From Deltaproteobacteria bacterium (GTDB taxonomy: Bacteria > Desulfobacterota > DSM-4660 > Desulfatiglandales > HGW-15), in contig JAGUZM010000487.1 in the NCBI GenBank assembly GCA_020060805.1, positions 1-34,056 on the forward strand: 34,056 nucleotides of DNA, in the 5' to 3' direction. The translations under genes and the position numbers were made by a program. Shown here piece after piece: positions 22,254-31,999 of the stretch. The notes under the pieces are model-generated. The model saw only the letters and a list, made by a program, of their open reading frames with translations, had not been told where the DNA came from and did no database searches. Numbering within the stretch: position 1 is the first letter of the stretch; every line of letters starts with the position of its first letter.

Positions 22254-23606
22254 TCAGGGCTTTTCAGGGAAGATGTTGATTTTGGATAAAAGGGTGTTTC
22301 GGTGAATGCCCAGGATTTCCGAGGCTTTTTTTCTGTTCCCGTCCACGCTGTCCAGGACCTCTTGAATATACTGCTGCTCAAAGTCATCCACCGCTTCCTT
22401 GAGGGTCACGCCTTTGATCTTTGCCTTGGCGATGCTGAAGGTGGAGATGTCACTGAGCTGTATCTCAGGCCCTTTCGAGATGGTAAAAGATCGCTCTACC
22501 AGGTTCTGGAGTTCCCTCACGTTTCCCGGCCAGTCATATGCCGCGAGCGCTTCAGCTGCCTCTGAAGAGAATTTCTTGAGTGGTTTTCCGCTTCGCTTCG
22601 CGTTTAATCCCAGGAAATGGTCGAGAAGAAGGGGAATGTCTTTTCTCCTCCCCCGCAGAGGGGGCAAGTGAATCGGAAATACGTTGAGGCGATAGAACAG
22701 ATCTTCCCTGAACCGGCCGCTTCCGATCAGTTCCCGAAGGTCCTTGTTGGAGGAAGCGATGAACCGGATATCGACCTTAATCACCTTGGTGGAGCCGATT
22801 CTCTCGAATTCCTTTTCCTGGATGGCCCTCAGAAGCTTCGCCTGCATGCTTATGTCCAGCGTGTCGATGTCATCCAGGAAAACGGTCCCTTTGTTGGCGA
22901 TTTCCAGCTTGCCCAAGGTTGTCCTCACAGCGCCGGTGAAAGCGCCTTTATGGTACCCGAATAGGGTGCTCTCCATCAGGGTCGGAGGAATCGCGGCGCA
23001 AGCCAGAACGACAAAGGGCTGATGTTGCCTGGGGCTGAGCTTGTGAATCGCCCTGGCAAAGAGCTCCTTGCCGGTTCCGCTCTCCCCCTGGATCAGAATC
23101 GCGCTGTCGCTTCCGGCAATGGTCGAGATGATCTCGAAGATCTTCATCATCCTCTCATCTTGGCCGATGATCTCTTCTGAGGGATGGTATCGCTCCAGCT
23201 CGTTCCTGAGGTAAGCCAATTCCTTGATAAGACTTCGTTTCTCGAGGGCGCGCTTGATGATGTTGATCACCTCATCCACGATAAACGGCTTGATGATGTA
23301 CTCGTATGCTCCCAGCTTGATGGCTCTGACCGCGGTTTGAACGTCTTTCACGGCAGTGACCATGATCACCTCCGGGTGTGGATCGATTGCCTTGAGTTTC
23401 TGGAGCAGGTCAAGGCCGTTCACGTCCGGGAGAAGAATATCGAGAAGAATCAGGTCAACGGTATTTTGCGTCAGGGCCTCGATCGCCTCTTTTCCCGTCT
23501 CTGCCAGCAGCACATGGTAGTTGTCTTTGAGCACCATTTTGAATGACTGCCTGATGCCGTTTTCGTCATCCACGACAAGGATGGTTCCCTGTTTGTCCGT
23601 GACCAT
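22254..23606 (-). CDS. Sigma54-dependent response regulator (NtrC family)
   Basis: NtrC-type regulators are phosphorylated by a histidine kinase and use ATP to remodel sigma54 RNA polymerase. The receiver (about 8-122) has VVDDE, phospho-acceptor Asp56 in LLDILLPD, MVTAV and IIKPF. The AAA+ domain (about 145-370) has Walker A GESGTGKE, the sigma54-contact loop KGAFTGA, Walker B GTVFLDDIDTL and the arginine-finger region GRFREDLFYRLNVFPIHLPPLR. A Fis-type helix-turn-helix ends the protein (NRKKASEILGIHRNTLLSKI). The length is normal at 450 aa. The start is ATG 23606-23604, with GAGGAAC upstream. No kinase is adjacent; the nearest, at 27174, is an open candidate partner. Targets are unknown. 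Confidence 0.96.
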   Translation of the reverse strand: MVTDKQGTILVVDDENGIRQSFKMVLKDNYHVLLAETGKEAIEALTQNTVDLILLDILLPDVNGLDLLQKLKAIDPHPEVIMVTAVKDVQTAVRAIKLGAYEYIIKPFIVDEVINIIKRALEKRSLIKELAYLRNELERYHPSEEIIGQDERMMKIFEIISTIAGSDSAILIQGESGTGKELFARAIHKLSPRQHQPFVVLACAAIPPTLMESTLFGYHKGAFTGAVRTTLGKLEIANKGTVFLDDIDTLDISMQAKLLRAIQEKEFERIGSTKVIKVDIRFIASSNKDLRELIGSGRFREDLFYRLNVFPIHLPPLRGRRKDIPLLLDHFLGLNAKRSGKPLKKFSSEAAEALAAYDWPGNVRELQNLVERSFTISKGPEIQLSDISTFSIAKAKIKGVTLKEAVDDFEQQYIQEVLDSVDGNRKKASEILGIHRNTLLSKINIFPEKP

Positions 23607-24269: not shown

Positions 24270-25232
24270 ATGAAGGTCAGTTCTTTTTTGCAAACAAGGC
24301 CCAATCTTTTTGCCTGCCAGGTACTCGGTTGGCGACTGACATCACACTACATCCATCTCATGGGGCATCTGTATTTTCGTGTGAATAAACAAGAGAAACG
24401 GAAGGTCGAAGGGTCCATCCAAATGGCCCTTGGTGTAAGCAAAAGCCGCAAGGAGATCGCGGAGCTGAAAAGACAGGTCTTGCTGGGGCTTCTCGACCAC
24501 TACTACGAAAAGGTTTTCAATGCCTACTCTTCGGTGGGGGAACTGCGGTCGTTCCTGCGGGACAACGTTGAAGGTGAAGGTCTGGAGTCCCTGGATGCGG
24601 CCCTGAGCAAAGGGAGGGGGGCGCTTTTCGTGACAGGTCACTTCGGGGGGGTGGAGTTCATCCCCGGTTACCTCGCCGTTTGCGGTTACCCGGTGACGAT
24701 CCTGGTGCGGTTCTCCTCACAGCTCTTGCGCAACAAATCGCTCTTGAAGGCTGCGAAATTTCACGCAAAAATCATTGATGTAGACAAAACCCAAAACATC
24801 CTTAAAGCCATTTCCGAGAACCTGAAGGAAAATCGCATCGTCGTGACCCAGTGCGATGAGATTGACGAATGGAAACCCATGAGAAACGGCACCCGGTGGT
24901 TCCTCGGAAAGTGCATCAACCTGGACAGGACTATTAATGTCGTGCTCAGGCGGAGCGGGGCTGCCGTGGTTTTCGGGATCATGGAGAGGCAACACAAGCA
25001 GCAATACAAACTCATCATGTCATCTCTGGAGGAGCTGAGGAAGGCCTTCGGCCTTCCTGGCGATGCTTCTCCCAGTGCAGCCGTACTCAAGCTTCTGGAG
25101 CAGCACATCTACGCGCACCCCGACCAGTGGTACCAGTGGGGCAAGTATTTTGGAATCGTAACAAGACCCATTTATTTCATTGAGTTCGAAAGGCGCAAGT
25201 CCCTGCCTTACCTGGAGCCTGCCACAGTTTGA
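24270..25232 (+). CDS. LpxL/HtrB-like lysophospholipid or lipid A acyltransferase
   Basis: Members of this family move acyl chains onto lipid A precursors or lysophospholipids at the inner membrane. The 320-residue protein has the catalytic H-x4-E motif in GHFGGVE (His124, Glu129), preceded by ALSKGRGALFVT. Later family-like segments are NRIVVTQCDEIDEW and GAAVVFGIMER, with a C-terminal DQWYQWGKY. The N-terminus lacks a strong single membrane anchor. LpxL proteins act on LPS, but distant members work in other lipid pathways, so the substrate is not assigned. It lies 375 bp upstream of the radical SAM gene on the same strand. Confidence 0.85.
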   Translation: MKVSSFLQTRPNLFACQVLGWRLTSHYIHLMGHLYFRVNKQEKRKVEGSIQMALGVSKSRKEIAELKRQVLLGLLDHYYEKVFNAYSSVGELRSFLRDNVEGEGLESLDAALSKGRGALFVTGHFGGVEFIPGYLAVCGYPVTILVRFSSQLLRNKSLLKAAKFHAKIIDVDKTQNILKAISENLKENRIVVTQCDEIDEWKPMRNGTRWFLGKCINLDRTINVVLRRSGAAVVFGIMERQHKQQYKLIMSSLEELRKAFGLPGDASPSAAVLKLLEQHIYAHPDQWYQWGKYFGIVTRPIYFIEFERRKSLPYLEPATV

Positions 25233-25607
25233 TTCCCCCGTTGACCCCGTAAGGTTCGTTTCTTCGGCTTGGAAAGCGGCACCCTGCACAAAGGGGACAG
25301 CCCGATTGAAATCGCTCCTCACCGGATCATTTTCCTCCTGAAGCATATCATCAGGACCGTGTTTCTAGCCGGCGCTTCGGATGACCGGCTCGTGGTTGGA
25401 CGGTCTTATCAGCCTAGTTGGTCATAGATTTTCCGGTTTTCTGATTGATTTCCGTATAAAAAGCTTAGTAAAATATAAAAGAAATTATTTTAGGAGGCGG
25501 AAAGGAAGGTTGATGCCCCGTGGTTTTTTATGCCACCTCTCCTCGAATTCTTTGAGAGGCCGGGATAACCAAAACCAAAGGGCGAGGAAAACCGAAAAAA
25601 GATCTCC
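25233..25607. other. Spacer before the radical SAM operon
   Basis: This AT-richer spacer contains no convincing large gene. It holds a promoter candidate (25445-25474), a strong AGGAGG at 25492-25497 and a possible 32-codon ORF (25513-25611). A longer reading of that frame from 25381 is less likely because it has no ribosome site. Confidence 0.5.
25445..25474 (+). promoter_or_regulatory. Possible sigma70 promoter of the radical SAM operon
   Basis: TTGATT (25445-25450) and TAAAAT (25469-25474) are separated by 18 bp in an AT-rich stretch. A transcript starting near 25480 would carry the small ORF at 25513 first. Confidence 0.5.
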
Positions 25608-25611
25608 ATGA
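25513..25611 (+). CDS. Possible small leader ORF upstream of the radical SAM gene
   Basis: The frame encodes 32 residues (MPRGFLCHLSSNSLRGRDNQ and a basic tail). AAGGA lies about 6 nt before its ATG. Its stop codon TGA overlaps the ATG of the radical SAM gene (ATGA), the classic arrangement for translational coupling, while the radical SAM gene itself has only a weak AAAAGATC upstream. It could be a leader peptide that drives coupling, a small peptide substrate, or chance. There is a single Cys and no typical RiPP leader. The call rests only on position and ribosome site. Confidence 0.3.
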   Translation: MPRGFLCHLSSNSLRGRDNQNQRARKTEKRSP

Positions 25612-27146
25612 TTCTTTTCATAGAGCCTATCTCCAAGAACATTGACATGTATGTCCCAGCCTATCCGTTACCCATTCTTGAGATAGCCAGCTTCGTCAGT
25701 TCCCATCTTCCCAGCGTCGATATCGGAGTCATTTCCGTCCCCGTGGACTATGGGCTGCCGATCACCCCTCAAGGTAAAGCCCAGATACACGAAGAGCTTA
25801 TCAGGGACATTCTGTCCTACAAACCCAAGGCTGTCGGCATTTCCTGCACAGCCATCGCCCAGGCGGAAGAGACGATTCAAATCTGCGAACTCATCAAGGC
25901 GAGGAATCCCGATGTCATCACCTTCTTGGGCGGATATTTCCCCACTCTCTATTATGAAGAGATATTCATGCGAACCTCGGCAGTGGATCTCATCGTAGCC
26001 GGTGAAGGTGAAGAGCCGGCCTTAAGAATCGTCGAGTCTCTGGTCGCTGGAAAAAGCCCGTTCAACCATGGTATCCCCAATCTCGTATGGAAAGATAACA
26101 ACCATCTCAACAAGACGAGAAACGGGAGAGCCTTTGATCTTCGGGGAAAGACTTTCCTCGATTTGAAACTGCTCAAATCTCAGAAAAGTTATGATATACT
26201 GCCTTACGCGTTCAGCCGAGGATGCCCCTACCATTGCGGTTTTTGCATGGAAAAGTACATTCGCCCTGTCAGGAGAGAGGTCCCGCAGGAGATCATTTGG
26301 GGAGATCTCTCCAATTTGGTGCGTCATAGCAGGGCTCATACCCTGCTGATCAGTGATGCCCTTTTTATGTCCTTTAAGCTCCTTCCAACGCTGAAAGCCC
26401 TGGGGATGAAAATCAACTTTGAAACCCGGTGTGATGTCATAGATCCCCGTATCCTATCTGAGATTGCGGATGTGTGCGGCATCCTTGCCCTAGGGTTTGA
26501 ATCAGCGAGCTACGAGACACTGAAGAGGATGAACAAGGTCAAGGACAGGTCTCATTACGAAAAGTATGTTTCAGGCACCGCAGAGGTATTCCGTCAGGCG
26601 GTAAGGATGGATATCCCGGTGGTCGTATTCATGATCGCGGGATACCCGGGGGACACGGAGGAGGATCTGAAAAGGAGCCTTGAGTTTGTCGGAAGTTTGG
26701 CAAAAATCAAGGGCGAAGGAGGTTATGTTTTCAAGATCGGCGAGTGTCGGGTTTATCCGAAGACAAAGCTTCATGAATTTGCATCAGCGATGCCTGACAC
26801 GATCTTTGAAGATAATGGCGTGTTCGGCGAAAATATCGTGAGAGTGCCTTCCAAACACTTGAATTTTGAAACGGTGCTTTCTTACATGAATCAAATATTC
26901 AACCTATCGCACACCACCCCTAAACTGCAGGACGCCATCACGAAGACCATGCCCCTTTTCCGCATACCTGCCAAGGGCCTGTCTGACGGCATGCTCCCCG
27001 ACATTTGCTTCAGGGACAGGGAAAGGGGTATCCTTAAGGCTCACGGCGACAACCTGTCACGAATCAGAAAACTCGTCCCGGCGTTGAGAGAAAAATATCA
27101 GGAATGGCTTCCAGGTATAAGGCAAATGCGTTCGCTGGAAGTCTGA
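25608..27146 (+). CDS. B12-binding-type radical SAM protein
   Basis: Radical SAM enzymes use a [4Fe-4S] cluster to make a 5'-deoxyadenosyl radical; members with a cobalamin-binding N-terminal domain often methylate or rearrange unreactive carbons. The N-terminal part (about 1-175) has the Rossmann-like pattern LEIASFVSSHLPS, KPKAVGISCTAIAQAEETI and ITFLGGYFPTLYYEE typical of this domain. It lacks an obvious DxHxxG cobalamin ligand, as in many family members. The cluster Cys triad is SRGCPYHCGFC (Cys206, Cys210, Cys213). GFESASYETLKRMNK and VVVFMIAGYPGDTEEDL follow, as in the family. The length is 512 aa. The kinase gene starts 27 nt downstream. The substrate is unknown. Confidence 0.88.
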   Translation: MILFIEPISKNIDMYVPAYPLPILEIASFVSSHLPSVDIGVISVPVDYGLPITPQGKAQIHEELIRDILSYKPKAVGISCTAIAQAEETIQICELIKARNPDVITFLGGYFPTLYYEEIFMRTSAVDLIVAGEGEEPALRIVESLVAGKSPFNHGIPNLVWKDNNHLNKTRNGRAFDLRGKTFLDLKLLKSQKSYDILPYAFSRGCPYHCGFCMEKYIRPVRREVPQEIIWGDLSNLVRHSRAHTLLISDALFMSFKLLPTLKALGMKINFETRCDVIDPRILSEIADVCGILALGFESASYETLKRMNKVKDRSHYEKYVSGTAEVFRQAVRMDIPVVVFMIAGYPGDTEEDLKRSLEFVGSLAKIKGEGGYVFKIGECRVYPKTKLHEFASAMPDTIFEDNGVFGENIVRVPSKHLNFETVLSYMNQIFNLSHTTPKLQDAITKTMPLFRIPAKGLSDGMLPDICFRDRERGILKAHGDNLSRIRKLVPALREKYQEWLPGIRQMRSLEV

Positions 27147-27173
27147 CGAACCCACCCGAGATTCCAGGACAAA

Positions 27174-29177
27174 ATGGAAAAGGAAGTAAGCTGCATCAAT
27201 ACCAAAGCCGTCTTTGAGTACCTCAAAGAGAAGTACCCCGGGGACTGCTCTTCCATTTTGCACGACCTTGATCCGGAGATCAACGGACTTCCGAAGCCTG
27301 TCGAGTTCCTCAAAGACCCCAACAACTGGGTTTCATGCAGGGTTGCATCCGAGCTCTACAAAAGGGCGGCACGCCTCATGGCCGATGAGCGGGTCGCGTA
27401 CCAGATCGCAAGGTTCGCTGTGGAAAGAGCTTCCCTCGGCTATGCTCAGCGGATAGTGGTAAAAGCGTTTTGGTCCCACAAGACAGCGCTCAAGCATGCC
27501 CAAAGGATCAATGATAAATTTAACCGGAACAAGAAAGTTGAACTGGTTGAAATAAAGCGTAACGGGGCAGTGGTGAGGCTTCATTGGGATACAAGGATGG
27601 GGGTGTCCAAACACCTCTGCTTCATGAACCAGGGAACGTACACCTACCTTCCTCTAATCTGGGGCAGTAGGCCTTTGACCTTGGAGGAAGTCTGTTGCAC
27701 TTTTGAGGGTGCGCCGTACTGCGAATATCACTTGAGGTGGCCGGCCAGAAACATCATCCATGAGATTTCTTCCAGATTCTTCACGAGCAAAACCGTCCTG
27801 ATGGAAACTGTGAAGGAAATGGAGGCTGACAAGAAGATCATTGAGCAGAAGTATGAAGAGGTCACCAGACTGAATCTCGAACTGAATCAGAGAATCAGGC
27901 AGTTGACGGCGATTCAGGAGACAGGGAAGGCGATCGTTTCCGTGCTGGAACTGGACCATGTTCTCCAGGTCATCATGAACCTCTTGTCCACGGTGTGCAA
28001 AATCAATCGGGCTGTCATCATGCTCGTCAACGAAGAGAAGGGGTGTCTTGAGTACATGTATGGGATTGGCTTGGAAGGGGGGGTTCCTGAACGGATCGTG
28101 GAGTACAAGGTGCCGGTTGACCGGGTGAGCAACCTGTTCGCGAGGGTGGTCAACACGGGCCGTTCGGAATATATCCCCGAGATTAGCACCTCGAACTTGA
28201 AAAAGGACAATGTGATTCTCACACACGGAAAACCTTTATCCGCTTTTGTGGTCCCCCTGATCAGCAGGTCAAAGGTCATAGGCGTCCTTGCCACTGACGC
28301 TGTTGACGGGACAGGTGTGCCCAAGGAAACGAGGGAAACCTTGGAGATTTTCGCTCCTCAGATCGCCATCGCTATCGAAAACGCAAAGCTCTACAGCAGT
28401 CTCCAGGAGAGAATAACGGAACTCAAACGATCGCAGGCTCTCTTGAGCAGAGCGGAAAAACTATCTTTCCTGGGAAACCTCGCTGCCAGGCTTGCCCACG
28501 AAATCAAGAATCCCCTGACCGCCATAGGCACGTTCATCCAGTTGCTGCCAAGCAAGTACAACGACGAGGAATTCAGGGAGGAATTCCATAAAATAGCGAT
28601 GGAAGAGACGATGAGAATGAACAACCTGATTACGGAATTGCTCGACTTGGTGAAACCGAGGGAATCCCATTTTGCCTTCGGTAATCTCCATGAGCTCATC
28701 GATAAAATGATCCTCCTTGTATCCCCTCAGAGCAAGGCGAAGAAAATTGAAATCATCCGCGAATTCGATCAGGGGGTGGGGGAGGTTTGGATGGATTCGG
28801 AAAAGATCAAGCAGGTGGTCCTGAATCTCCTTTCCAATGCCCTGGATTTCACGCCAACCAACGGGAAGATAGAAATAGGGACGAGGAGGAGCGAAGATCC
28901 GGGAAAAGGGGACTTCGTAAGGATTGAAGTGAAGGACAACGGGGTCGGCATACCTGCATCCATCATGGACAAAATTTTCGACCCCTATTTCACAACGAAA
29001 CACAAGAGCAGCATGCACAGCGGGACAGGGCTGGGCCTTTTCATCGCATATCAACACGTGCGGGATCATTCGGGGACGATTGAAGCGAAGAGCAACATGA
29101 ATGAAGGAGCGACTTTCGTCGTCACCCTCCCTCTTTCTCCAGACCAGCCATCCTCGCCCGAGAAAGCCCTCCAATGA
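27174..29177 (+). CDS. Soluble sensor histidine kinase with V4R-like and GAF domains
   Basis: The 667-residue protein has no membrane segment, so it should sense a cytoplasmic signal. Residues about 30-195 resemble the V4R/heme-NO-binding-type sensor fold, including EEVCCTFEGAPYCEYHLRW. A coiled coil near 210-240 leads into a GAF domain (about 245-410). The kinase core has the H-box HEIKNPLTAI (His442), N-box NLLSNALDF, G1 DNGVGIP, F-box FDPYFTTK and G2 GTGLGLFIAYQ, all intact. No receiver is fused. It follows the radical SAM gene by 27 nt and its stop overlaps the enolase-superfamily start by 4 nt. It may signal to the NtrC-type regulator at 22254, but that is inference. Confidence 0.92.
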   Translation: MEKEVSCINTKAVFEYLKEKYPGDCSSILHDLDPEINGLPKPVEFLKDPNNWVSCRVASELYKRAARLMADERVAYQIARFAVERASLGYAQRIVVKAFWSHKTALKHAQRINDKFNRNKKVELVEIKRNGAVVRLHWDTRMGVSKHLCFMNQGTYTYLPLIWGSRPLTLEEVCCTFEGAPYCEYHLRWPARNIIHEISSRFFTSKTVLMETVKEMEADKKIIEQKYEEVTRLNLELNQRIRQLTAIQETGKAIVSVLELDHVLQVIMNLLSTVCKINRAVIMLVNEEKGCLEYMYGIGLEGGVPERIVEYKVPVDRVSNLFARVVNTGRSEYIPEISTSNLKKDNVILTHGKPLSAFVVPLISRSKVIGVLATDAVDGTGVPKETRETLEIFAPQIAIAIENAKLYSSLQERITELKRSQALLSRAEKLSFLGNLAARLAHEIKNPLTAIGTFIQLLPSKYNDEEFREEFHKIAMEETMRMNNLITELLDLVKPRESHFAFGNLHELIDKMILLVSPQSKAKKIEIIREFDQGVGEVWMDSEKIKQVVLNLLSNALDFTPTNGKIEIGTRRSEDPGKGDFVRIEVKDNGVGIPASIMDKIFDPYFTTKHKSSMHSGTGLGLFIAYQHVRDHSGTIEAKSNMNEGATFVVTLPLSPDQPSSPEKALQ

Positions 29178-30325
29178 GAATCGAGGAAGTAAGGATTCAC
29201 AAAATAAGGCTCCCCTTTAGGGCTGATTTTACCCATGCTCTTGCCAGGAGTGCCTTGGCTGAAAACGTCGTCGTGGAGATAAGGGGGGAAAACGACAGGG
29301 TGATCGGGTATGGCGAGTCCGCTCCCCGACCATACGTGACAGGCGAAACCGCGGACAGCGCCCTCAAATCCATTGAACGTTTGGTGAGTGAAAAAACCTT
29401 TCCCTGGGATCTGAGGGGGATTTCTCAGGTATGGGGCTTTGTGGACAGCCTGCCCGGTGGGAAAGACCAAAATGCGGCGATCTGTGCGATCGAGGGAGCA
29501 TTGCTTGATAGTTTCAGCCGTTTACAAGGCCGTTCGCTCATCGAGTATTTCCCCCATGATCATTTGTCCGAAAGCGTTCAGTACGGCGCCGCTGTCCCGA
29601 TCGAGGAGCCCGAGAGAATAGCCGAAACCTGCAGGGCGGTGAAAAACATGGGTATTCGTCGGCTGAAGGTGAAGATGGGCAGGGAATTTTACCAAAACAG
29701 GTTGATCCTCGAAGCGGTTCAACGTGTTTTCGAGTATGACTGCGATCTCAAAATCGACGTCAACGGCGCATGGCCCCTGGAAGCTGCCCTCCAACACCTG
29801 CCGCTGATCGAAGGTTACAGAGTAAGAGTTGTTGAGCAGCCAATGGTACCCGAGGACCTGGATATCGTCGATTTTGCCCCGAGGGTGAAGGCTTGGGGTG
29901 TTAAGTTGATGGCTGATGAGTCGGCGTGCTGCCTGTCAGAGGTGGCGAAAGTGGTCCATGAAGGCCACTACGATATGATCAATGTGAGGTTGTCGAAGTG
30001 TGGCGGGTTCAGGAGGTCTCTCCGGATCGTGAACTACTTGCGGGAGAAAAAGGTTGCCTTCCAGGTTGCATGCCAACTCGGCGAATCAGGCATTCTTTCC
30101 GCAGCAGGGCGGATATTAAGCCTTCTTTGCAATGATGCCGTTTACCATGACGGCTCGTATGACGAGTTTTTGCTGGCGCAAAATACCACGGAATCCCATG
30201 TATCCTTTGGGCTGAAGGGGATGGCCGGGCCATTGGGAGGAGTTGGCCTCGGGGTCAAAGTGGATGGGCGGAATCTGGAACGGTTGAGCGATCCCGGCAC
30301 GAGAGTCCGACTCAGAAGGCCATGA
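29174..30325 (+). CDS. Enolase-superfamily enzyme, muconate-lactonizing subgroup
   Basis: Enzymes of this subgroup abstract an alpha proton next to a carboxylate; members include muconate cycloisomerase, o-succinylbenzoate synthase and dipeptide epimerases. The 383-residue protein has every active-site element: K165 and K167 (RLKVKMG), metal ligands D195 (DVNGAW), E221 (VEQP) and D248 with E249 (MADES), and the opposite-face K275 (RLSKCGG). The segment GESGILSAAGR is near the C-terminal barrel end. The DxD motif used by many Ala-Glu epimerases to bind the amine is not evident; HDGSYDEFLL stands in its place. The substrate is therefore open. ATG 29174 overlaps the kinase stop (ATGA), so kinase and enzyme are co-translated. 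Confidence 0.88.
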   Translation: MRIEEVRIHKIRLPFRADFTHALARSALAENVVVEIRGENDRVIGYGESAPRPYVTGETADSALKSIERLVSEKTFPWDLRGISQVWGFVDSLPGGKDQNAAICAIEGALLDSFSRLQGRSLIEYFPHDHLSESVQYGAAVPIEEPERIAETCRAVKNMGIRRLKVKMGREFYQNRLILEAVQRVFEYDCDLKIDVNGAWPLEAALQHLPLIEGYRVRVVEQPMVPEDLDIVDFAPRVKAWGVKLMADESACCLSEVAKVVHEGHYDMINVRLSKCGGFRRSLRIVNYLREKKVAFQVACQLGESGILSAAGRILSLLCNDAVYHDGSYDEFLLAQNTTESHVSFGLKGMAGPLGGVGLGVKVDGRNLERLSDPGTRVRLRRP

Positions 30326-30402
30326 AATTGAGATGATGAACAAAGACTTGTGATCCGCCAGATTCCGTCGTACCTTTTCCCTGCTGCAGGAACACACCCC
30401 AA

Positions 30403-30544
30403 AGGCTGTTCGACAACCTGATCAAAGCCCCTTTTTGTCATTTCGACCCCTCTGGAAAACAGGGGGAGAAATCTTAAGAATCCGGAAATCTAGAATACCA
30501 AGATTCCCCGGCTAAAGCCTCGGAATGACGTTGTCGGACAGCCT
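30403..30544. repeat. Nested long inverted repeat, MITE-like
   Basis: Outer arms AGGCTGTTCGACAAC (30403-30417) and GTTGTCGGACAGCCT (30530-30544) match at 14 of 15 positions. Inside them are GTCATTTCGA/TCGGAATGAC (30437-30446, 30520-30529) and AATCTT/AAGATT (30470-30475, 30500-30505). The CATT-CGA and GAAATCTT words are typical of dispersed palindromic repeats seen in many environmental bacteria. It carries no transposase gene. Confidence 0.7.
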
Positions 30545-30628
30545 CCTGAGCGCTTATTTCTCCTCCCTTCATTCAAAAAGCAGCTTCATCCGCACCCAAG
30601 AACACCTCAAGGTGTCGGGAAAAAAACG

Positions 30629-30743: not shown

Positions 30744-31382
30744 ATGAAACTCCGCAGAAAACGCTACCTTATTGATAAGAAACTTCAATTGAGGCTCTTG
30801 GTTTACAACATCATTTATTTTCTGATCATCGTTTCCGTCATCGGCGTCGGGCTGTTTCTGCCTCTCGTTATCGAGCTTTCAGACGGAAACCTGGATATTA
30901 TGCAACAGGGCGTCGTGGCGGACAAGATCCTCTACCTGCATTCCAGGCTGGGGCCGGTGTTGCTGGTTATTTTCTTGGTGTTTGGCGTCCATTCCTTGCT
31001 TGTCTCGCACAAGATCGCAGGACCTCTATACCGATTCCGGGCGACGTTTCAGCAAGTCGCCGAAGGAGACCTCTCCAAGGTCATCGGCATTCGGAAAGGC
31101 GATTTTCTCCTGAACGAGCAGGCCAAAATCGAGGAAATGATTTCAGCTCTCCGGGCGAAATTGAGCATCGTGAAGAGGGAGCAGGCGGTCATAGAACGGG
31201 TGGTCAATCAGCTCGGCCAGGAGTCCGCTCAGAGCGGCGACTTGAAGAGGAGCATTGCAGCGCTCGAAGAGTGCAATTCGCGCCTCAAGAAGGAGTTGGA
31301 GTACTTCAGGTTGACGGACATGGATGTGGTCAACGTGAGAGATGCAGGCAAGATATTCAATCCGGATGATCAAGGGAAATGA
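30744..31382 (+). CDS. Membrane protein with HAMP-like domain and coiled coil
   Basis: The 212-residue protein has two membrane segments (about 20-42 and 70-90) separated by a short periplasmic loop. A HAMP-like stretch follows, with HKIAGPLYRFRATFQQVAEGDL and KGDFLLNEQAKIEEMISAL. The rest is a predicted coiled coil ending NVRDAGKIFNPDD. HAMP domains normally relay signals into methyl-accepting or kinase modules, but no such output domain is present, so it may act through a partner. The stop overlaps the pseudopilin gene by 4 nt (ATGA). GAGAGGGGG lies upstream of the ATG. Its function is unknown. Confidence 0.86.
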   Translation: MKLRRKRYLIDKKLQLRLLVYNIIYFLIIVSVIGVGLFLPLVIELSDGNLDIMQQGVVADKILYLHSRLGPVLLVIFLVFGVHSLLVSHKIAGPLYRFRATFQQVAEGDLSKVIGIRKGDFLLNEQAKIEEMISALRAKLSIVKREQAVIERVVNQLGQESAQSGDLKRSIAALEECNSRLKKELEYFRLTDMDVVNVRDAGKIFNPDDQGK

Positions 31383-31999
31383 TGAAACGACGGAGCACGT
31401 TGATGCGCATATTTCATCAGGGGCGGCGGCACGGCAGCAGCCTTGGCGGGTCGAAGGGCTTTACGATTTTTGAGCTGATGGTTGTTCTCGCCATCGTGGC
31501 GACTCTGGCGAGCATCGCCATATCCGCTTACGCCAAATTCATCGAGAAAACCAAAATCATCAGGACGATTGCCGATATCAAGCACCTGGAGAGCCTCCTT
31601 GAGGATTATTACAACCAGAATGACCAATACCCTGACAGCCTGGATGAGCTCGGCAAGGGAACATCTAAAGATCCCTGGGGGAACCCTTATCAATATGTGA
31701 ATATCACCACTTCCCCGCACCAGGAATGGAGAAGGGACAGGAACAACAAGCCCATCAACACCCAGTATGATCTTTACAGCATGGGGCCGGACGGCGATTC
31801 TCAGAAGCAGGTGAACGGGGCAAAGGGCCGGGATGACATCATTCGAGCCTGGGACGGTTCGTTTATCGGGTTGGGTAAAGCCCTGGATGAACTCTGGGAG
31901 AAGGGCCAGGATAAAGACAAGGAGGACAAGCCCCCCAAGGACGAAAAGCCCCCCAAGGACGAAAAGCCGCCAAAGGACGAGAAACCGCCCAAGAAATAA
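31379..31999 (+). CDS. Type II/IV pseudopilin-like protein with Pro-Lys-Asp repeat tail
   Basis: The prepilin motif is clear: after SKG comes FTIFELMVVLAIVATLASIA, with Glu5 of the mature protein and a long hydrophobic helix. DPWGNPYQY and YDLYSMGPDGD follow, as in GspG-type major pseudopilins. The last 25 residues are PPKDEK repeats encoded by an 18-bp tandem unit. Three starts are possible: ATG 31379 (overlapping the HAMP gene stop), ATG 31382, and ATG 31403, which has GGAG 7 nt upstream and would give a 19-residue leader. No other secretion genes are present. It may be assembled by a distant type II secretion or type IV pilus machine. Confidence 0.9.
   Translation: MMKRRSTLMRIFHQGRRHGSSLGGSKGFTIFELMVVLAIVATLASIAISAYAKFIEKTKIIRTIADIKHLESLLEDYYNQNDQYPDSLDELGKGTSKDPWGNPYQYVNITTSPHQEWRRDRNNKPINTQYDLYSMGPDGDSQKQVNGAKGRDDIIRAWDGSFIGLGKALDELWEKGQDKDKEDKPPKDEKPPKDEKPPKDEKPPKK
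31931..31996 (+). repeat. 18-bp tandem repeat in the pseudopilin gene
   Basis: The unit encodes PPKDEK. Two copies (31931-31948 and 31949-31966) are identical, the third (31967-31984) is diverged at third positions, and a partial fourth ends at the stop. Such arrays can change copy number by slippage and alter tail length. Confidence 0.75.

Follow-up and report, generated by a model that had tools for sequence, protein, structure and literature searches.

A sensor kinase gene that travels with biosynthetic enzymes

Why should a sensor kinase be encoded in one cluster with an acyltransferase, a radical SAM protein and an enolase-type enzyme, and what might it sense there? This question is raised by a locus of contig JAGUZM010000487.1 of Deltaproteobacteria bacterium (assembly GCA_020060805.1), whose 34,056 nucleotides, hereafter the window, make up the entire contig C332 of a metagenome-assembled genome (MAG; 91.6% complete, 7.9% contaminated). 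In this locus, genes for a B12-binding radical SAM protein (rSAM), a histidine kinase with a sensory domain of the V4R type (HK) and an enolase-superfamily enzyme (ENO) lie downstream of an LpxL-like acyltransferase gene (AT). The open reading frames (ORFs) of the first three, their spacing (27 nt between rSAM and HK, a 4-nt overlap between HK and ENO) and the upstream acyltransferase are as described in the initial annotation of this DNA. Our data indicate that the module is a conserved sensor-enzyme set built from known protein families and undescribed in the literature searched, where no paper joining acyltransferase, V4R sensor, enolase-type enzyme and rSAM was found; the initial annotation likewise knew of no system of such make-up. 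Contamination is an unlikely source of the locus, since same-family relatives carry the same genes, some of them with identical PheS-PheT and branched-chain transporter neighbours.

Conservation and co-occurrence

Searches at the levels of genus, family and order recovered the same arrangement, with identities of 42-58% for the ENO and 54-64% for the rSAM orthologues. The search for the rSAM-HK-ENO order beyond close relatives, suggested in the initial annotation, yielded 20 distinct loci from several families, including Desulfobacteraceae/Desulfobacterales MAGs, Eth-SRB2 and RBG_13_43_22. Comparison of the surroundings revealed a family layout in which a divergent NtrC-type regulator gene is followed by AT, an optional rSAM gene, HK, ENO and an optional PP-loop ATPase gene, with AT located upstream of HK/ENO in most loci. 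The AT-HK-ENO version devoid of rSAM was about as common as rSAM-HK-ENO (e.g. in G001, G012, G024 and NaphS2, G053/L230); the NaphS2 version is AT-HK-ENO-PP, and the PP-loop ATPase gene is absent from the window. A tree built from 102 ENO proteins requires a minimum of 10 gains or losses for the rSAM neighbour and 12 for the PP-loop neighbour, some of which may be explained by contig ends. The stable core of the module is AT, the V4R sensor and ENO, usually with the divergent NtrC-type regulator, rSAM and the PP-loop ATPase being accessory. The three genes had been correctly grouped before, but the borders of the system were drawn too narrowly, as AT and the regulator belong to it and rSAM is optional.

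Co-occurrence was scored across the phylum in a sample of 395 genomes, with ENO called at E<=1e-38 and the V4R sensor domain at E<=1e-10. ENO was present in 44 of these genomes and the sensor domain in 54; the V4R sensor was found in 43 of the 44 ENO genomes, at a distance of 6 kb or less in 33 of them and with the genes split over short contigs in several others. Within the order, the sensor domain was detected in 35 of 85 genomes. Furthermore, sensors only 25-45% identical still adjoin AT and ENO, often divergently (L151, L152, L154, L157, L048, L117 and L118), and the AT/ENO/V4R set reaches the Spirochaetales. The correlation of V4R and ENO distances (r=0.69, vs 0.54 for kinase and ENO) is compatible with co-evolution, with kinship uncontrolled, and was not used as evidence. 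A single-protein scan of genome contigs with ENO found nothing.

The sensory domain and its outputs

No transmembrane region is evident in the kinase, and its HisKA domain, with the phospho-acceptor His in a HEIKNP motif, and HATPase_c domain identify it as a two-component histidine kinase. Pfam analysis of the window kinase gave no V4R match, only a sub-threshold one to Arabinose_bd (E=0.005), and its distant homologue L048 passes the V4R model PF02830 with 38.9 bits (cut-off 31). In an alignment of 41 N-termini (alignment A1), residues C149, E172, C175 and C183 are invariant, and XylR of pWW0 carries the same Cys-Glu-Cys-Cys residues with identical spacing (+23, +3, +8). The zinc site of phenol sensors is made of three Cys and one Glu (PMC10715001), and the sensor domain contains a predicted zinc-type site of this composition. 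Its AlphaFold (AF2) model, with a predicted local distance difference test (pLDDT) score of 88, gave best Foldseek matches to H-NOX (template modelling score, TM, 0.59-0.66), followed by PoxR and MopR (0.44-0.47 and probability 1.0 for PoxR), placing the modelled domain in the V4R/H-NOX/TRAPP ligand-binding fold; a profile search of the PDB with alignment A1 returned only noise. The earlier description of a soluble V4R-GAF kinase stood for solubility and for GAF, and the V4R label is right in kind because of the zinc-site spacing, the Pfam-passing homologue and the predicted fold: the sensor appears to be V4R-type by homology and fold and is not a Pfam member. Heme sensing of the H-NOX kind fits the fold but was rejected as a candidate: the aligned helices of the 41 sequences show no conserved His (H102 is kept in 2 of 41) that could serve as proximal ligand, which makes heme binding unlikely.

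Next to ENO, or elsewhere in genomes that carry it, V4R-GAF sensors were also found joined to hybrid kinase-receiver modules (L150, L154, L048 and L226) and to HD-GYP phosphodiesterase domains (L158, L160, L267 and L268). As kinase, hybrid kinase and HD-GYP outputs differ, it is the sensor, and not the output, that is tied to the enzymes. The main reason to infer that the sensor reads something that the enzymes make or use is this linkage following the sensor; the initial annotation had suggested that the kinase senses a substrate or product of its neighbours, a proposal that both output swapping and the co-occurrence counts support. One HD-GYP case, from a Spirochaetales MAG (L268:8560-14218), is an ENO - PP-loop ATPase - V4R-GAF-HD-GYP - M28 peptidase cluster, which extends the module beyond Desulfobacterota and gives it an output of the c-di-GMP type.

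The enzymes and their candidate product

ENO carries K165/K167, D195, E221, D248, K275, E304 and D326 and, like most of its homologues, has the layout of the MLE subgroup (KxK, three metal ligands and a second catalytic Lys). Its nearest curated families are N-acetyl-D-Glu racemase/N-acyl-Glu racemase, o-succinylbenzoate synthase (OSBS) and dipeptide epimerases, all with scores far below cut-off; it scores 88-90 bits with the L-Ala-D/L-Glu or dipeptide epimerase families (cut-offs 343-500) and falls outside them, and its nearest solved structure is the dipeptide epimerase 3jva. The KxK, D, E, D, K layout is shared with 3jva, the N-acetyl-D-Glu racemase DgcA and N-acylamino acid racemase/OSBS, and a C-terminal acidic residue stands at the place of the DxD of dipeptide epimerases, whereas the conserved motifs GESGILSAAGR and DGSYDxFLL are its own.

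Variants of ENO were also observed. In six homologues (L045, L046, L048, L057, L110 and L117), nearly all adjoining a PP-loop gene, D248 is replaced by Cys and K275 by Arg. In L051:4554-5660 and its relatives L050, L052 and L053, the partner of a divergent ENO is a WbuX-like N-acetyl sugar amidotransferase in place of AT and the V4R sensor, and the ENOs of L050-L053 have Leu for K167 and Glu for D195. ENO - PP-loop (- ENO) clusters devoid of AT and V4R sensor occur in L074, L222, L072 and L215; those of L074 and L222 lie near cysE/cysK or NifU/NifS, perhaps reflecting sulfur chemistry.

AT matches PF03279 with 45.7 bits, and H124 and E129 of its HX4(D/E) motif are invariant, so that fold and motif place it in the LpxL family; its best score with the curated LpxL equivalogs is 36 bits against a cut-off of 281, which does not extend to an assignment as a lipid A acyltransferase. 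A lead on the product came from other phyla, where ENO relatives 30-36% identical adjoin OlsH-related GH3 ligases (11 loci from Omnitrophota, Auribacterota, Binatia and others) and OlsI-like hydrolases (7 loci from Planctomycetota, Omnitrophota and Auribacterota); GH3, hydrolase, LpxL-type AT and ENO are found together in the Abyssobacteria locus L265. In a planctomycete, OlsH and OlsI are responsible for making ornithine lipids, and other amino acids were suggested by the authors for other GH3 proteins (PMC12493201). These neighbours point to acyl-amino-acid chemistry. The resemblance to the OlsH-OlsI pathway lies in such neighbourhoods; on the other hand, the window has an LpxL-like acyltransferase in a genome that lacks GH3, the scores of the ENO-linked GH3 proteins fall far short of the cut-off for OlsH, and the S. 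acidiphila operon has OlsG, with ENO not mentioned (PMC12493201). The aminolipid genes described for D. alaskensis and roseobacters were considered and are different. As to the product, proposed before as a lipid or a peptide, the former or an acyl-amino acid is favoured over a peptide because of the GH3/OlsI-like neighbours of ENO relatives and because no conserved small precursor ORF was found within the operon.

The rSAM protein contains a B12-binding N-terminal domain and a CX3CX2C radical SAM core, as do class B enzymes, and its model (pLDDT 78, moderate) matches the overall fold of the cobalamin-dependent methylases MgmA, CysS, TokK and TsrM. Methylation is its likely role because of this modelled resemblance. 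Unlike these enzymes and the PhpK family, which shares the same domain architecture, it reaches no NCBIfam equivalog (77 bits vs a cut-off of 600 for PhpK). Some AT-HK-ENO operons contain in tandem a second, PhpK-like B12 radical SAM gene (L144:9363-10949 and L146:5431-7002), the L146 copy scoring 308 bits with TIGR04479.

Regulation and proposed mechanism

Orthologues of the NtrC-type regulator are 61-75% identical and lie divergently beside AT or HK in many loci. Sigma54-like sites of the form TGGCAYRN4TTG immediately precede AT in about 13-14 of the 32 loci tested, and 28 such sites occur in 0.94 Mb of these loci vs about 5 expected. For the family, these sites lend good support to control by the NtrC-type regulator; in the genome of the window such control is unproven. 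A PEP-CTERM PrsK-PrsR identity was rejected, as the scores were 420 vs 502 for the regulator and 97 vs 300 for the kinase.

Starting from the observed conservation and co-occurrence, we infer a ligand, a product and a mode of regulation, and put them forward tentatively, with somewhat less than even confidence in the whole: the V4R domain would sense a product of AT and ENO, of acyl-amino-acid type and methylated by rSAM where this enzyme is present, to control the operon. AT would add an acyl chain, and ENO would act on the alpha-carbon of an amino-acid-like head group by racemisation, epimerisation or elimination. The result would be an acyl-amino-acid or aminolipid-type molecule, which rSAM would methylate in lineages with this gene. 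This molecule or its precursor would be the ligand of the cytoplasmic V4R domain, and the signal would pass through GAF and the kinase core to the NtrC-type regulator, by which the operon would be controlled together with sigma54. A broader reading, that AT and ENO make the acyl-amino-acid signal of a widespread undescribed class of self-produced signalling, varied between lineages by rSAM and the PP-loop ATPase and received by a cytoplasmic V4R domain with interchangeable outputs (kinase plus NtrC regulator, hybrid kinase, HD-GYP c-di-GMP phosphodiesterase), is based on genetic linkage and output swapping, and we regard this quorum-type extension as rather speculative and on the whole unlikely.

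Several observations weigh against the sensing of an AT/ENO product. The Fisher test for ENO and V4R (p = 6e-46) treats related genomes as independent, and the counts weigh more than the p value; about 11 genomes have the V4R sensor and no ENO at the cut-off used. The chemistry of ENO may differ among copies, because some have Cys248/Arg275, and the GH3-linked ENOs are just 30-36% identical to that of the window. In addition, neither GH3 nor an OlsB-type N-acyltransferase was found in the genome of the window, and the first acylation would therefore have to be carried out by AT itself or by something unrecognised. Finally, the window has no sigma54-like site upstream of AT.

The chief competing explanation is that the kinase responds to an aromatic or hydrophobic compound from outside, in the manner of MopR, DmpR and PcrS, and switches on membrane-lipid remodelling, the enzymes not being the source of the ligand. 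The characterised V4R sensors named in PMC10715001 all bind phenols, AT is a membrane-lipid-type enzyme, and H137 and W138 of the sensor are mostly kept among the homologues (34 and 35 of 41, respectively). AT-HK-ENO is also carried by NaphS2, a naphthalene degrader. However, a general xenobiotic sensor would not need a linkage to ENO and AT that persists across the phylum and in Spirochaetales while outputs change, the cluster contains no recognisable catabolic genes, and alignment A1 shows no conserved His that would correspond to the phenol-binding His of MopR, located on the preceding helix; we consider this explanation unlikely, if worth keeping in view. Simple co-regulation of envelope housekeeping, with ENO as an L-Ala-D/L-Glu-type epimerase of murein recycling, AT as a lipopolysaccharide acyltransferase and the kinase as an envelope-stress sensor, would agree with 3jva as best PDB match and with the M28 peptidase that follows the Spirochaetales ENO-PP-V4R set. 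This is distinctly improbable in view of the cytoplasmic V4R domain, the distance of AT from the curated LpxL equivalogs (36 bits vs about 280) and the GH3/OlsI-like neighbours that point to aminolipids in other phyla, and no murein-recycling genes were recognised in the clusters.

The remaining explanations fare worse. Conservation could reflect mainly vertical descent on a slow-moving chromosome segment with no shared pathway, as PheS-PheT and branched-chain transporter surroundings are common to some loci; this is very improbable and already contradicted by loci that are rearranged yet linked, with the AT/ENO/V4R set recurring in different phyla, in quite unlike neighbourhoods and arrangements (divergent in L151-L157), while rSAM and the PP-loop gene come and go. 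Maturation of a ribosomally synthesised and post-translationally modified peptide (RiPP), in which rSAM would methylate and ENO epimerise a ribosomal precursor, would explain the weak rSAM matches to the RiPP methylases ApyD and rSAM_ocin. Nevertheless, the precursor search found no small ORF conserved between loci within the operon, most AT-ENO loci have no rSAM, and Pfam detected no precursor-binding domain, so that it is hardly credible and is counted as refuted unless a precursor lies elsewhere in the genomes.

Organisation of the locus

Coordinates are collected in Table 1. The initial annotation had begun the operon at position 25445, a place marked by no more than a weak sigma70-like match, of a kind that is no commoner there than in shuffled sequences. 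The AT-rSAM gap is longer in the window (375 nt) than in most relatives (about 30-160 nt), individual gaps being approximate as gene starts follow a simple longest-ORF rule. It is single copy in its genome, and an Rfam search of the window for an element in it returned only tRNA. According to the initial annotation, rSAM, HK and ENO would form a single transcript with coupled translation. A scan for terminator-like sites found none on the + strand within 25608-30325.

Table 1. Features of the locus, with positions in the window
Feature	Coordinates	Strand	Basis
NtrC-family response regulator (receiver, sigma54 AAA+, HTH_8); probable kinase partner	22254..23606	- (divergent)	Pfam
LpxL/HtrB-like acyltransferase (AT), first gene of the conserved operon	24270..25232	+	PF03279; HX4E motif H124-E129
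AT-rSAM gap, 375 nt, with weak sigma70-like match at 25445-25474	25233..25607	+	
B12-binding radical SAM protein (rSAM), accessory, 512 aa	25608..27146	+	Pfam B12-binding and Radical_SAM; CX3CX2C = C206/C210/C213
V4R-GAF-HisKA-HATPase_c sensor kinase (HK), soluble, 667 aa	27174..29177	+	Pfam GAF, HisKA and HATPase_c
Predicted V4R-type sensory domain, aa 1-190 of kinase	27174..27743	+	Alignment, XylR spacing, model, Foldseek, homologue L048
Putative zinc-type residues C149, E172, C175, C183	27618-27620, 27687-27689, 27696-27698, 27720-27722	+	Alignment
GAF domain, aa 260-402 of kinase	27951..28379	+	Pfam
HisKA and HATPase_c kinase core, aa 434-655	28473..29138	+	Pfam
Enolase-superfamily enzyme (ENO), MLE-subgroup type, 383 aa	29174..30325	+	Pfam MR_MLE_C

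Directly downstream of ENO lies a 161-bp repeat (30395-30555) that has 13 genomic matches and resembles MITE or REP elements; its ends, GGCTGTTCGACAAC...GTTGTCGGACAGCC, are imperfectly inverted as seen by eye, and an exact-seed repeat finder gave no match. It is followed by two overlapping genes (30744-31999) for a membrane protein of no recognised family and for a GspG-like pseudopilin whose repeat tail is rich in proline and lysine (KPPKDE), a pair that recurs near the same operon in the same-genus genome L071.

Relation to known V4R sensors and significance

The window sensor shares its predicted N-terminal V4R fold and the zinc-site spacing with the aromatic sensors MopR, DmpR/CapR, PoxR and XylR, which are one-component proteins, and with the kinase PcrS of Aromatoleum aromaticum (PMC10715001); as in PcrSR, a separate response regulator would provide an NtrC/sigma54-type output. 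In contrast with these sensors, to which its identity is very low, it is linked to acyltransferase and enolase-type enzymes and not to phenol catabolism, domains of its type are also fused to hybrid kinases and HD-GYP, and its top Foldseek matches are to H-NOX.

V4R sensors with known ligands serve phenol breakdown, whereas here the zinc-site fold is genetically tied to a biosynthetic enzyme pair, phylum-wide and beyond, with its outputs exchanged. NaphS2, the carrier of one version, has been cultured, which opens the module to tests. If the sensor reads the product, the module would constitute a testable receptor-synthase pair and give a first function to a large branch of the enolase superfamily, and it would help to study how sulfate reducers that have not been cultured monitor themselves or their membranes.

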